From Actinomycetota bacterium (lineage in GTDB: Bacteria; Actinomycetota; Acidimicrobiia; Acidimicrobiales; Microtrichaceae), in assembly GCA_005777415.1 (NCBI GenBank), contig SXMI01000160.1, positions 1-37,495 of the forward strand: DNA of 37,495 nt, in the 5' to 3' direction. Below are positions 7,487 to 26,263 of this stretch, in pieces. The position numbers were made by a program, and so were the translations under genes. A model generated the notes under the pieces. The model was not told the origin of the DNA and ran no database searches. It was given only the letters and a program-made list of their open reading frames with translations. Positions within the stretch are counted from its first letter, which is position 1; each line of letters starts with the position of its first letter.

Positions 7487-9466
7487 ATGCCCGAGCAGCT
7501 CATCTGGTCGCCGCTGCAACTGGGTCCCGTCACGGTCCGCAACCGGATCGTCTTCTCGGCCCACCTCACCAACTACGCCCGGGACGGCCTGCCGACCGAG
7601 CAGCACGCCGCGTACTACGCGGCCCGGGCCGCCGGCGGGGCGGGGCTCATCATCACCGAGGAGCACTCGACCCACCCGACCGACTGGCCCTACGAGAAGC
7701 TGATCCACGGGTTCCACCCGGAGGTGATCCCCGGGTACCGGCGCATCACCGAGGCCGTCCACCGGCACCGCGTGCCGATCCTCGCCCAGATCAACCACAA
7801 CGGCGGTCAGGCGAGCTCCATGTACTCGCGGTTGCCCGTCTGGGCGCCGTCCCCGGTGGCCGACCCGCTGTTCCGTGAGGTCCCCAAGGCGGTGTCGCAC
7901 GCCGAGATCAGCGAGATCGTCGCCTCGTACGGGCTGGTCGCCGGGCACTGCGCCGAGGGCGGCTTCGACGGCGTCGAGCTCCAGTGCTCACACAGCTCGA
8001 TCGTGCGGGGGTTCCTGTCCCCGGCCACGAACCACCGCACCGACGAGTACGGCGGTCCACTCGAGCACCGGGCCCGGATCCTCCTCGAGATCGTCGCCGA
8101 GGTCCGTCGGGTGATCGGGCCGGACCTGGCGCTGGGCGTCCGGCTGTGCGGGGACGAGTTGATCGAGGGAGGCACCACGATCGACGAGGCCGTGCAGGTC
8201 GCCCGGATGGTCGAGGCCACCGGTCAGGTGGACTACATCAACACCTCGATCGGGGTGGCGACGGCGTCGCTGTTCATGATCGAGGCCTCCATGCACATCC
8301 CGCCGGGGTACTCCATGTTCATCCCCTCCGCGATCCGGGAGGCGGTCGACCTGCCGGTGGTCGGCGTCGGCCGGTTCAAGGATCCGCTCCAGGCCGAACG
8401 GGCGCTCGCCGAGGGCCAGTGCGACCTGGTCGGCGTGGTCCGCGGGCAGATCGCGGACCCGGAGTTCGTCGCCAAGGCCCGGGCCGGGTACACCGACGAC
8501 ACCCGGCTCTGCCTGTCCTGCAACCAGGAGTGCGTGGGCCGCATGGGGCTCAACCGCTGGCTCGGCTGCATCGAGAACCCGGCCGCCGGTCGGGAGTCCC
8601 TCGGCGTCGGCCGCGCCCGGCCGGTCCGGCTGGGCCGGCGGGTGCTGGTGATCGGCGCCGGTCCGGCGGGCCTCCAGACCGCGATCGCCGCCGCCCGCAA
8701 CGGGCACCGGGTGACCGTCCTCGAGCGGTCGTCCGCCGCGGGCGGGCAGGTCCGGCTGGCGGCCACGGTCCCGAACCGGGCCGAGTTCGGCGACCTGGTC
8801 CGCAACCAGCTCCACGAGTGCGGCCGGCTCGGCGTGCAGATCGAGTACGGCGTCGAGGCCACCGCCGACGAGGTCGAGTCCCGCGGCGCCGACACCGTCG
8901 TCGTCGCCACGGGGTCGGTGCCGTCCCGTCCGTGGTGGGCGCCGGGCGACGCCGAGTGGATCGTCGACGTCCGCGACGTGCTGGAGGGGACGGTGCAGCC
9001 GACCGGCAACGTCGTGGTGCTCGACGAGCTCGGGTTCCACCACGCCACGTCGGTGGCCGAACTGCTGGCCGACCGCGGCTGCCACGTCGAGGTGGTCAGC
9101 CCGGGCATGGTGGTGGGCCAGGACCTGGGCATCACCCTCGACCTGGAGAACTGGTGGATCCGGGCCGAGTCGAAGGGCATCCGGCAGTCCACCGAGCTGG
9201 TGCCGATGTCGGTGGACGGCCGGACCGTCACCTTCCAGCACCACCCGACCGGGAGCTCCGAGGAACGGACCGTCGACTGGTTGGTCCTGGCGGTGCCCTC
9301 CACCCCGGCCGACGCGCTCTACCACGAGCTCCGTGCCCGGGGGCTGCCCGTCGAGCGGGTGGGTGACGCCGTGGCCGCACGACGGGCGCACGCCGCCGTC
9401 ATCGACGGCGAGCGGGTCGGCGCCGCGGTCCCGGCCGCTGAGCGCGAACCGGTCAGGGTCCCGTGA
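7487..9466 (+). CDS. Mycofactocin-system FadH/OYE family oxidoreductase (copy 2)
   Basis: RIVFSAHLTNYARDGLPTEQHAAYYAARAAGGAGLIITEE; Fe-S motif CLSCNQECVGRMGLNRWLGC (CX2CX3CX11C); FAD motif VLVIGAGPAGLQTA. Confidence 0.88.
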   Translation: MPEQLIWSPLQLGPVTVRNRIVFSAHLTNYARDGLPTEQHAAYYAARAAGGAGLIITEEHSTHPTDWPYEKLIHGFHPEVIPGYRRITEAVHRHRVPILAQINHNGGQASSMYSRLPVWAPSPVADPLFREVPKAVSHAEISEIVASYGLVAGHCAEGGFDGVELQCSHSSIVRGFLSPATNHRTDEYGGPLEHRARILLEIVAEVRRVIGPDLALGVRLCGDELIEGGTTIDEAVQVARMVEATGQVDYINTSIGVATASLFMIEASMHIPPGYSMFIPSAIREAVDLPVVGVGRFKDPLQAERALAEGQCDLVGVVRGQIADPEFVAKARAGYTDDTRLCLSCNQECVGRMGLNRWLGCIENPAAGRESLGVGRARPVRLGRRVLVIGAGPAGLQTAIAAARNGHRVTVLERSSAAGGQVRLAATVPNRAEFGDLVRNQLHECGRLGVQIEYGVEATADEVESRGADTVVVATGSVPSRPWWAPGDAEWIVDVRDVLEGTVQPTGNVVVLDELGFHHATSVAELLADRGCHVEVVSPGMVVGQDLGITLDLENWWIRAESKGIRQSTELVPMSVDGRTVTFQHHPTGSSEERTVDWLVLAVPSTPADALYHELRARGLPVERVGDAVAARRAHAAVIDGERVGAAVPAAEREPVRVP

Positions 9467-10389: not shown

Positions 10390-11684
10390 GCGACTTCGAC
10401 GCGATCGTCGTCGGCGCCGGCCCGGCGGGTTCGGCCGCCGCGCTCGAGCTGGCCCGCGCCGGCCGGTCGGTGTGCCTGCTGGAGCGGGGACCCACGCCGG
10501 GCTCCAAGAACATGTACGGCGGGGTGGTCTACGGGCGGATCCTGGACACGCTCGTCCCCGGGTGGTGGGAGCAGATGCCCGTCCAGCGGTGGGTCACCCG
10601 GCGCAGCACCATGCTGATCCACGACGACCGGGCGCTGACGGTCGACTTCCGCCATCCCGGGTGGGGCGCGGCTCCGTTCAACGGTGCGACCACGTTCCGA
10701 CCCGACTTCGACGCCTGGCTCGCCGGACTGGCGGTCGATGCTGGGGCGTCGCTGGTGTGCTCGACCACGGCCACCGGCCTGATCCGCGAGGGTGGCCGCG
10801 TCGTCGGCGTCCGCACCGACCGGCCCGACGGCGACCTCCGGGCACCGGTGGTCATCGCCTGCGACGGGGTGAACTCGTTCCTGGCCAAGGAGGCGGGGAT
10901 GTACCCGCACACCGACGCCGCGAACTTCACCGTGGGGGTGAAGGAGACCATCTCGTTGCCCCGTGAGGTGATCGACGAGCGGTTCGGCGTCCGCGGTGAG
11001 GAGGGCGTGGACATCGAGATCCTGGGCTGCACCGGCGACGTGCCGGGGGGAGGGTTCGTCTACACGAACGCCACGTCGGTCGCCGTGGGACTGGTGCTGT
11101 CGCTCCCGGCGCTGGCGGCGGGCGGCGACCGTCCCGAGGAGCTGCTCCGCCGCCTGAAGGCGCACCCGGCGATCGCCCCGCTCGTGGAGGGCGGCGAGGT
11201 GCTCGAGTACTCGGCCCACGTGATCCCGGAGGCGGGCTACGAGATGATGCCCGAGCTCGTCGGCGACGGGATCCTGGTCGCCGGTGACGCCGCCGCCATG
11301 TGCCTGGCCGCCGGCATCTGGCTGGAGGGTGTGAACTTCGCGATCGGCTCCGGCGCGGCCGCCGGGCGGGCGGCGGCGCAGTGCATCGCCCGCAACGACA
11401 CGTCGGCCGCTGCGCTGGCGGCCTACCGGCGGGCGCTCGAGTCGTCGTTCGTCCTGGCCGATCACCGCAAGCTGCGGGCGGCACCCCACCTGGTCATGGG
11501 CGACCTGGCCCAGCGTGGCCTGCCGGCGGTCGCGTGCGGGGTGATGGAGGACCTGTTCACCGTCCGGAACCCCGAGCCCAAGCCGGGTGTCCGGCGGATC
11601 GTGCGGACGCAGATGCGGCGGCACGGGGTGCGGGCCCGGGACGCCGTCCGGGAGGGCCTGCGTGCGCTCCGGGCGTTCGGGTGA
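10386..11684 (+). CDS. FixC-like ETF:quinone oxidoreductase-family flavoprotein
   Basis: DAIVVGAGPAGSAAALELARAGRSVCLLERGPTPGSKNMYGGVVYG...GDGILVAGDAAAMCLAAGIWLEGVNFAIGSG. GTG start overlapping the ETF-alpha stop. Confidence 0.9.
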   Translation: MSDFDAIVVGAGPAGSAAALELARAGRSVCLLERGPTPGSKNMYGGVVYGRILDTLVPGWWEQMPVQRWVTRRSTMLIHDDRALTVDFRHPGWGAAPFNGATTFRPDFDAWLAGLAVDAGASLVCSTTATGLIREGGRVVGVRTDRPDGDLRAPVVIACDGVNSFLAKEAGMYPHTDAANFTVGVKETISLPREVIDERFGVRGEEGVDIEILGCTGDVPGGGFVYTNATSVAVGLVLSLPALAAGGDRPEELLRRLKAHPAIAPLVEGGEVLEYSAHVIPEAGYEMMPELVGDGILVAGDAAAMCLAAGIWLEGVNFAIGSGAAAGRAAAQCIARNDTSAAALAAYRRALESSFVLADHRKLRAAPHLVMGDLAQRGLPAVACGVMEDLFTVRNPEPKPGVRRIVRTQMRRHGVRARDAVREGLRALRAFG

Positions 11685-12004
11685 GCGATGCTGGAGCGAC
11701 CGTGACCGACTCGACCTACCCCGAGATCAGCTTCGAGGCCCGGATGGCCACTGTCGAGTTCCGCGTCGACGCGGACCGGGCCCACATCACCGTGGACGAC
11801 ACGGTCTGTCGTGACTGCACGACCCGGGGGTGCATCACGGCGTGCCCGGCGAACCTGTTCGTGCCCACGGCGGCCGGCGGGATCCTGTTCAACTACGAGC
11901 AGTGCTTCGAGTGCGGGACCTGCTACCTCGTGTGCAACGAGGAGGGCGCGATCTCCTGGACCTACCCCGAGGGTGGGCACGGGGTCGTGTTCCACCGGAG
12001 CTGA
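11681..12004 (+). CDS. FixX-like ferredoxin
   Basis: CRDCTTRGCITACPANLF...NYEQCFECGTCYLVCNEEGAISWTYPEGGHGVVF. Start GTG 11681 or 11702. Confidence 0.88.
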   Translation: MSDAGATVTDSTYPEISFEARMATVEFRVDADRAHITVDDTVCRDCTTRGCITACPANLFVPTAAGGILFNYEQCFECGTCYLVCNEEGAISWTYPEGGHGVVFHRS

Positions 12005-23624: not shown

Positions 23625-24695
23625 TCAGTCGGCGAAGGGGTCGGTACCGAACCGGCGTGACGCCGTCTCGATGGCCTCGAACTCCCGGGTCTCCGCCGGG
23701 ACGTAGACGAGTTGGGAGTCGTCGACGGGCTCGGCGTAGAACTGGGCGGCCCACCGACGGAAGGGTGTGAACGGGCCGTCGGTGTCGGCCAGCGCCGGTC
23801 GGGCGAGGAACGCCTTGTTCTGCCAGATGGGTGTGTCCTCCTGGACCTGCTTGTCGATCTCGTCGACGAATGCCTGACCGACGGTCGAGTTGACCGCGGC
23901 GTCGTCGCCGAGTTTCTTCACGGTGAACGTGAAGCGCATGTGGCAACGGTTGCGGGTGAGCGGCGTGTTGCAACCCATGAGGACGGTGTCGACGATCCCG
24001 GAGAATCGGATGACGCTGAAGCCGGGGCCGAAGGAGTCGGCGTCGATCCGTCCGTCGACGATCCCGCGGGGGGTGGGGAACTTCTGGATCGAACGCATCT
24101 TCGTCCGGGGGCCGTCGGTCTCGTAGCTCTCCAACTCGGGCACCATCTCGGTGTGGTGGACGTAGCGGAAGTGGGCCGAGTCGACCCCGTTCTCGGCCAG
24201 GTCCTGCCACGGGGCATCGATCACGTACTCGCGGGTCTCCACCGGTGTGTAGTGCTCGGGGTCGTTGAACTCGGGGACGTCCGGGATCTCCCAAGCGGGG
24301 GCGTCGCCATGCGGGTGGTACCAGGCCAGGATGATTCCGTTGCGTTCGGTCACCGGGTAGGAGGTGACGCAGGCCTTCTTGTTGGTCCGCTCCGAGTAGG
24401 GGATCAGCGTGTTGCGGCCGTCGCCGTCGAACCGCCATCCGTGGAAGGGGCAGGCGATGTCGGTGCCGTGGACGCTCCCGCCGTAGGCGAAGTGGGCGCC
24501 GAGGTGCGGGCAGAAGGCGTCGTTGACGTGGGCGCCGCCCTCCTCGTCCCGCCAGACGACGAGCTTCCGGTCGAAGTAGTCGAGGGGGGTGATGTCCCCG
24601 GGCTTCAGGTCGGCGGACCAGCAGACCTGGAACCAGCCGAAGGGGATGGGGAACGGTGAGCGGACGATCCTGCCGGCGTCATCGGTCGTGGGCAT
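23625..24695 (-). CDS. Rieske non-heme iron oxygenase alpha subunit, KshA-like
   Basis: Rieske motif CPHLGAHFAYGG...CPFHGWRFDGDG; iron-binding region NGVDSAHFRYVHH. GGAGG RBS upstream of ATG 24695. Confidence 0.85.
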   Translation of the reverse strand: MPTTDDAGRIVRSPFPIPFGWFQVCWSADLKPGDITPLDYFDRKLVVWRDEEGGAHVNDAFCPHLGAHFAYGGSVHGTDIACPFHGWRFDGDGRNTLIPYSERTNKKACVTSYPVTERNGIILAWYHPHGDAPAWEIPDVPEFNDPEHYTPVETREYVIDAPWQDLAENGVDSAHFRYVHHTEMVPELESYETDGPRTKMRSIQKFPTPRGIVDGRIDADSFGPGFSVIRFSGIVDTVLMGCNTPLTRNRCHMRFTFTVKKLGDDAAVNSTVGQAFVDEIDKQVQEDTPIWQNKAFLARPALADTDGPFTPFRRWAAQFYAEPVDDSQLVYVPAETREFEAIETASRRFGTDPFAD

Positions 24696-24885: not shown

Positions 24886-24891
24886 TAGGGT
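24886..24891 (+). promoter_or_regulatory. Candidate -10 (TAGGGT), leaderless promoter
   Basis: TAGGGT, 7 nt, then GTG 24899. Confidence 0.4.
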
Positions 24892-24898
24892 CCGCGTC

Positions 24899-25471
24899 GT
24901 GTCCTTCCCAGCCACGACCCCCGGACGGAGGTCCGAATCCGTCTGTGCCAGACCGTCCCGTTTTTCGGGACGCAACGGGCCGACTGGTTGGGTGGAACTT
25001 GCCAGACCGTCCCGTTTTTCGGGACGGGGCGGTCTGGTGGTGGTGGCGGTGGCAGTGGTCCTCCTGCTCGTCGGGTGCTCGTCCACCGATGATCCGGCTC
25101 CCTCAGCGGCCCCGGACTCGTCATCCACTGTTCTTCCGGCGGCGACCCCCGGTGCGGAGCCCTCGGGGACCAGCGAGTTCTGCCAGCGGGCCGAGTCCTT
25201 CAACCAGGTCCTCGCCAGCGTCGACGCCAACTCGATTGAGTCCTTCGACGTCATCGCTTCGGAGGTCGCCGGCCTGTCGGCGGCCGCCCCCGCCGAGATC
25301 GCCGGCGATCTGGCCACGATGAGCGGGTACTGGAACGAGCTGGCCGCCGTCGACACCGACGACCCCGCGCAGGTCGGTCAGCTGACCCAGCGGAACGACG
25401 ACGTGGTCACCGCCGGCCAGCGCGTCACGGCCTATCTGGTCGACGAGTGTGGGATCACCCCGGTCGAGTGA
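24899..25471 (+). CDS. Putative lipoprotein
   Basis: Lipobox-like LLLVGCSS after a hydrophobic stretch (VVVAVAVVLLLVGC), then Ser/Pro/Thr-rich linker and a helical domain. The N-region is encoded by duplicated hairpin repeats. Confidence 0.72.
   Translation: MSFPATTPGRRSESVCARPSRFSGRNGPTGWVELARPSRFSGRGGLVVVAVAVVLLLVGCSSTDDPAPSAAPDSSSTVLPAATPGAEPSGTSEFCQRAESFNQVLASVDANSIESFDVIASEVAGLSAAAPAEIAGDLATMSGYWNELAAVDTDDPAQVGQLTQRNDDVVTAGQRVTAYLVDECGITPVE
24946..25026. repeat. Direct repeat (27 bp x2, 54-bp period) of palindromic element TGCCAGACCGTCCCGTTTTTCGGGACG
   Basis: Copies at 24946-24972 and 25000-25026, identical over 27 nt. Each holds the hairpin CGTCCCG-TTTTT-CGGGACG. Copy 2 extends to an imperfect 36-nt palindrome ending GGTCTGG. 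Confidence 0.95.
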
Positions 25472-26166
25472 GCGGCGCACCCGAGGCCGAGGATCACCCG
25501 GAGGGCATCCCCCAGCGGCCGTGGGCGCCGCCCGCCGATGCGACGACGATCCTGTTGGTCCGCCACGGGGCGACCATGCCCGAGCATCCCGATCGGCCCC
25601 ACCCGTTCCTCGACGGTCAGGGTGACCCCGACCTGGCGCCCGAGGGACGGGATCAGGCCGAGGCGGTCGGCCGCCGGCTCGCCGCCGAGCACGCTGCGGG
25701 CATCGGGTTCTCCGGCGTGACGGTCACCAACCTCCGTCGGACCCACCAGACCGCGGCCCCGCTGCTCCGGGCGACCGGCTTGCCCGTGACCGAGATCGCC
25801 GAGCTGCGCGAGGTCCACCTGGGGGAGTGGGAGGGCCGGTTCCGCCAGCGGGTGGCCGATGGCGACCCGCTGTTCGCCGAAGCGCTCCGGGCCCAGCGGT
25901 GGGACGTCATCCCGGGCGCGGAGCCGGCCGCGGCCTTCGAGGCCCGGGTCCGGGCCGGGATCGGCCGGATCGTGGCCGCTCACCCCGGTGGTCGGGTCGT
26001 CGCCGTGGTGCACGGCGGGGTGATCGGCCAGGTGATGTCCACCGCCACCGGCGCAGGTGTCTTCGAGTTCTCGGCCGCGGACAACGGATCGATCAGCGAA
26101 CTCGTCGTCGTCGCCGACGGTGGCTGGCGGGTCCGGCGGTTCAACGACACGGCCCATCTGAGCTGA
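25468..26166 (+). CDS. Histidine phosphatase (phosphoglycerate mutase-like) family protein
   Basis: LLVRHGATMPEHP (RHG motif), LREVHLGEWEG, VVAVVHGGVIGQ. 4-bp overlap with the lipoprotein gene. Confidence 0.9.
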   Translation: MSGAPEAEDHPEGIPQRPWAPPADATTILLVRHGATMPEHPDRPHPFLDGQGDPDLAPEGRDQAEAVGRRLAAEHAAGIGFSGVTVTNLRRTHQTAAPLLRATGLPVTEIAELREVHLGEWEGRFRQRVADGDPLFAEALRAQRWDVIPGAEPAAAFEARVRAGIGRIVAAHPGGRVVAVVHGGVIGQVMSTATGAGVFEFSAADNGSISELVVVADGGWRVRRFNDTAHLS

Positions 26167-26263
26167 ACCCGCGTCGTCCGGTTCTCCGGCTCCAGCGCGC
26201 GACACGTAGGCCGCGCGCGACCCCTATATCGGTGCTGGGTGCGGTCGGGGGTGCCGGGTGCGG

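Follow-up and report, generated by a model that had tools for sequence, protein, structure and literature searches.

Two identical 27-nt palindromic repeats lie in frame near the 5' end of a predicted lipoprotein gene, and further copies occur at unrelated loci of the same draft genome and once in a sibling species. We think it likely that they belong to a small, low-copy, untagged REP-like palindromic repeat that has multiplied in this lineage, and that two copies entered the lipoprotein n-region in frame. The gene would thus be a clean small example of a protein that has incorporated a dispersed palindromic repeat, with the start codon fixed by sibling comparison, in a clade where such repeat families seem little described. 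It also bears on the mobility of REP-like repeats that have no RAYT; the effect on the cell is probably slight.

The repeat pair and its fold

The window, that is, the whole stretch of 37,495 nucleotides that was analysed, contains the following features around the repeat pair.

23625 to 24695, reverse strand: divergent neighbour, Rieske oxygenase of the 3-ketosteroid 9alpha-hydroxylase (KshA) type; the neighbourhood is the same in sibling species G003
24886 to 24891, forward strand: TAGGGT, a putative -10 box separated from the GTG start by exactly 7 nt
24899 to 25471, forward strand: lipoprotein gene, 190 aa, with both repeats in the n-region and the lipobox LVGC, its Cys at codon 60
24946 to 24972, forward strand: repeat copy 1 (C135a), TGCCAGACCGTCCCGTTTTTCGGGACG; its first T completes the codon of Cys16, after which the lipoprotein frame reads ARPSRFSGR
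24973 to 24999, forward strand: 27-bp spacer between both copies, no more similar than chance to the spacer of the pair on contig C143
25000 to 25026, forward strand: repeat copy 2 (C135b), TGCCAGACCGTCCCGTTTTTCGGGACG, same as copy 1 and in the same frame
25002 to 25037, forward strand: 36-nt imperfect palindrome enclosing copy 2, with the outer arm CCAGACCG/CGGTCTGG found only there
25468 to 26166, forward strand: downstream neighbour, histidine phosphatase branch 1 (phosphoglycerate-mutase-like), with a tentative start codon

The pair had been noticed in a sequence-only reading of the window, and its description is accurate: the copies are identical at 27/27 positions, are offset by 54 bp and share the frame of the ORF at 24899-25471. 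The 7-bp stem and T5 loop proposed for each copy were confirmed by folding (RNA -12.6 kcal/mol, z -3.3; DNA -8.7, z -4.3); across the repeat copies the stem reaches 8 bp where a G follows, and the loop is 5 nt. The longer palindrome claimed for the second copy is present as well, and a 45-nt segment containing it folds strongly (RNA -32.4 kcal/mol, z -6.7; DNA -16.5, z -7.4). An outer-arm complement as good as that of copy 2 arises in 0.3% of random 20-nt flanks, or about 2% allowing for the six copies examined. We rejected a longer palindrome, formed through a 3' outer arm, as common to all copies, since it is above chance at copy 2 only. The 27-mer is free of stop codons in all six reading frames. 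No Rfam family matched within the window at the gathering score.

Distribution of the repeat and extent of the unit

The same reading had found no other copy, and this stands for the window, where the core GTCCCGTTTTTCGGGAC matched only the two known sites (100 dinucleotide shuffles gave a mean of 0.15 matches, even allowing 3 mismatches), but not for the genome. The genome-wide search for the 27-mer that it had suggested returned three more copies on two other contigs of the 2.58-Mb draft (334 contigs, 67% complete, the sole genome of its species compared), giving five copies at three loci: two in the window, two on contig C143 (at 1041 and 1126) and one on contig C127 (at 5270, with one mismatch). 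A reversed-pattern control search of this genome gave no matches. The refuting case named beforehand in that reading, a genome with these two copies only, did not arise. On C143 an SDR gene and a thiolase gene converge on the 215-bp gap that holds both copies; in the five siblings this gap measures 7, 57, 60, 61, and 73 bp. The C127 copy has an ABC transporter gene on one side and a small gene on the other and is antisense to both. The gap orthologous to that of C143 holds short direct-repeat pairs of other sequence in G005 (C20) and G001 (C58), namely CGCTGACCGGATCG twice and TCCTCCCGCTCGTC twice.

Sibling species G003 has a single copy with three mismatches in the intergenic region orthologous to that of C127; the flanks can be aligned, and the C127 copy therefore predates the split of the two species. 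G003 is the only one among 60 listed relatives with a recognisable copy, and four of the six genus genomes lack the repeat. Among 397 genomes of the order, the 27-mer with up to two mismatches was found in its own genome only. A structure-aware covariance-model search of 33 family genomes (E<=0.02) recovered the own genome and G003 only; within the genus, G003 scored 45.6 bits and the next match 23.5 bits, and the weak matches that were inspected proved to be coding or unrelated sequence. No exact 25-mer was found across GTDB, where records near the own genome may be absent, and searches of viral contigs (with a 20-nt core) and of phages and plasmids (with 147 bp) gave no match. A 19-nt core gave 15 single matches across GTDB in unrelated phyla; we do not regard these as family members because none of the 15 has the TGCCAGAC arm and several have terminator-like A/T-tract flanks. 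Judged from these searches, the repeat appears to be common to this species and sibling G003 only.

Alignment of six copies, the five from the own genome and that of G003, revealed 17 invariant 5' nucleotides, TGCCAGACCGTCCCGTT, and an identity that stops at 27-28 nt. Between non-orthologous copies, flanks and spacers show no more similarity than random segments do; hence the repeated unit is about 27-28 nt. These mismatching flanks and spacers also led us to reject the two pairs as copies of one longer unit, and they lend no support to the copying of a pair as a block. Pairs are found at two of the three loci, both head-to-tail, with spacers of 27 nt in the window and 58 nt on C143. REPs do not usually pair in the same direction, a hint that some factor promotes pairing. 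Simple local duplication within one gene, with no dispersal, would account for two identical copies 54 bp apart, but three further copies on two other contigs, in unrelated flanks, leave it hardly credible and refute it as a complete account; duplication of copy 1 into copy 2 could be the source of the local pair only, if the 27-mer alone was copied.

The distribution also bears on two functional readings. The reading of the window had offered a structured regulatory element, two stem-loops just after a leaderless start, as an alternative. In such a role, the stem-loops might tune translation or stability of the lipoprotein message, or the repeats might be protein- or sRNA-binding sites in several mRNAs. 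The strong folds, above all that of the second hairpin, and the invariance of TGCCAGACCGTCCCGTT in all six copies including that of G003 are in keeping with such a role. Nevertheless, we hold it to be unlikely: the copies have no consistent strand or position relative to genes (sense and intragenic, between convergent genes, antisense to both neighbours at C127), no such element is found upstream in any ortholog, the hairpin of the G003 copy is weakened (z -0.6), and no Rfam family corresponds to it. In a second reading, a dimeric protein would be recruited to several places by the repeat, which would act at the DNA level as an operator or as a binding site for a nucleoid protein. Although the palindromic core and the near-identity of the copies would suit this, several features make it distinctly improbable: conservation extends to an 8-nt 5' arm that is asymmetric, two of the copies are located within a coding region and another two in a gap between convergent genes, and the repeat occupies only three loci in 2.58 Mb and is missing from four of six genus genomes. 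Mixed orientations and sites between convergent genes weaken the mRNA-element and operator roles alike.

Two sets of similar sequences were seen apart from these copies. On its antisense strand, an mscS-like gene of G001 agrees with TGCCAGACCGTCCCGTT at 17/17 positions, over the codons for NGTVWH, and its counterpart in the own genome agrees at 15/15; the match sites are L062 (G001 C34), L073 (G003 C247), and G000 C132 at about 11660-11686. The match is possibly chance, given GC-rich codons, or it could reflect the origin of the repeat by capture and snap-back. A distant T-loop hairpin, CCGTCCCGTTTTTTCGGACA, with 3 mismatches to the core, is found at G000 C197 (about 8637-8656, reverse strand) and L009 (1501-1520), directly upstream of a gene whose start resembles a RelA/SpoT-type protein.

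Gene start, orthologs and n-region

The lipoprotein, which has no Pfam match, has orthologs in all five siblings (G001-G005), and the comparison with relatives that had been proposed for the gene found the repeat missing from all five genes and their upstream regions. The leaderless start claimed upstream of the repeats is backed by conservation: TANNNT-N7-GTG is present in four sibling orthologs, and in these and the gene itself it occurs exactly once per searched region, directly before the n-region; in the fifth sibling, G002, the GTG start is preceded by GGAGG. Two later starts were considered and rejected. A GTG at 25037, after the repeats, would put the Cys after just 13 residues, none of them positively charged, in contrast to the orthologs, whereas one at 24992, between the repeats, would give a plausible length, but neither a Shine-Dalgarno sequence nor a -10 box was seen for it.

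With the upstream start, the distance from start to lipobox Cys is 60 codons, compared with 26, 28, 34, 35, and 38 codons in the siblings, and the change to the signal-peptide n-region that had been suggested thus consists of a lengthening. Subtraction of the 81-bp repeat-spacer-repeat segment leaves 60-27=33 codons, within the sibling range of 26-38. On the strength of this length comparison and the absence from orthologs, in-frame entry of the repeats into the n-region is the most likely course, and we infer by parsimony that they were inserted in this gene and not lost from the five siblings. The C143 pair presents a similar picture, its gap being longer than that of every sibling. The earlier proposal of a dispersed REP-like hairpin that entered the gene is supported by the five copies at three loci and none in five orthologs.

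The events may be pictured as follows. A repeat multiplying in this lineage, with a tendency toward double landing at one place in the same orientation, would have placed two copies early in the coding sequence of the lipoprotein gene with its leaderless start, adding to the n-region about 27 residues, of which the two ARPSRFSGR stretches are rich in Arg. The frame survived because each 27-nt copy lacks stop codons in all six frames and repeat, spacer and repeat together add 81 bp; the same properties, a length that is a multiple of three and the lack of stops, would explain why the repeat was tolerated. Since the hydrophobic stretch downstream of the repeats and the LVGC lipobox are intact, predicted export of the lipoprotein probably continues. 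The second, longer hairpin may somewhat alter mRNA stability or translation, and the repeat is probably near-neutral, or close to harmless, at this site. Against insertion of a mobile REP-like repeat we count the small number of copies in comparison with REP families and the negative results for a transposase or other mover, a target-site duplication and a clean empty site. Around the copies, terminal repeats and target-site duplications are not visible, and the DNA about these sites is too diverged to present a clean empty site.

Comparison with known repeat classes and other repeats of the genus

The broad description of a REP-like sequence, a palindrome of 20-40 nt dispersed over unrelated loci, applies to this repeat with its 27-28 nt and three loci. 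Five copies per 2.58 Mb in a 67% complete genome is low for a REP family; many copies are usual, yet families of 20-100 units "or even less" have been included and no lower limit has been set (PMC3733652). GTAG REPs with a RAYT are likewise hairpins of 20-40 nt, chiefly intergenic and often paired, but the present repeat has few copies and lacks their tag, the GTAG tetranucleotide being missing from the hairpin foot of the aligned copies. Furthermore, Y1_Tnp (PF01797) was found in none of the six genus genomes, of which the own is 67% and G003 86% complete, although controls were positive. It is therefore very unlikely that an IS200/IS605-like Y1 transposase moves this repeat as a classical REP, even though its size, hairpin, intergenic and intragenic sites, and pairing would match the description of REPs (PMC3733652). 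The derivation from a RAYT or transposon advanced in the sequence-only reading found no support in the search for this domain, for GTAG, or for terminal repeats and target-site duplications.

The nearest described class is that of the CGTC-tagged repeats, which include Rickettsia RPE-4 and RPE-6, have stems of 8-9 bp and loops of 4-5 nt, and have no dedicated transposase (PMC3733652). They lie between convergent genes and also in frame within ORFs, at times two per ORF, and are known from five phyla, Actinobacteria not among them (PMC3733652). The present repeat agrees in stem and loop size (7 bp, or 8 with the G, and 5 nt). CGTC-tagged repeats carry an unpaired CGTC at one end and a CCA tail at the other and form mostly head-to-head dimers (PMC3733652), whereas the present repeat has CGTC inside the stem, TGCCAGAC as its unpaired arm and head-to-tail pairs, and lacks the combination of unpaired CGTC and CCA. 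Because GTAG is missing and the tag, tail and dimer orientation of the CGTC class differ, we classify it, from its sequence, as REP-like in the broad sense and in neither tagged class.

Other classes are more distant. Rickettsia palindromic elements of the RPE-1 type also insert in frame and leave the host ORF open, and the present repeat shares with them its absence from orthologs, but they are described as longer palindromic insertions (PMC3733652) than the 27 nt seen here. MITEs are similarly short, non-coding and dispersed, but measure 70-300 bp with terminal inverted repeats of 15-30 bp (PMC3733652), whereas our copies have nothing in common beyond 27-28 nt and no visible target-site duplication. 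CRISPR repeats can be palindromic with 27-28 nt, but two repeats per site, spacers of 27 and 58 nt and one solitary copy do not make an array.

A repeat survey of about 0.88 Mb of the own contigs revealed two more dispersed short repeat families, and short repeats are thus a feature of this lineage. We regard as quite doubtful the broader idea that the genus has several unrelated families of short paired hairpins made by an undescribed, Y1-free process and adoptable as new n-region coding sequence. The second family has the core CGCGCTGGAGCCGGAGAACCGGAC, often preceded by GCGCGGGGTACATGT, with a member in the window at 26175-26204 (reverse strand) and further copies on G000 contigs C98, C109, C107, C75, C183, and C305 and on G003 contigs C227, C207, C206, and C261; among the six genus genomes it is confined to these two, and one G003 copy, like the member in the window, is close to the phosphatase gene. 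The third family is a near-perfect palindrome of about 50 nt, GCTTTGTGGTGCGAGC and GCTCGCACCACAAAGC enclosing an inner stem around ATAT that varies with pairing kept, and is often flanked by G-rich tandem repeats. Its sites are the window at 1-32, L110 at 1689-1740, L053 at about 1835-1880, and the starts of L124, L149, and L150; four copies are at contig ends, and the left edge of the window accordingly falls inside one.
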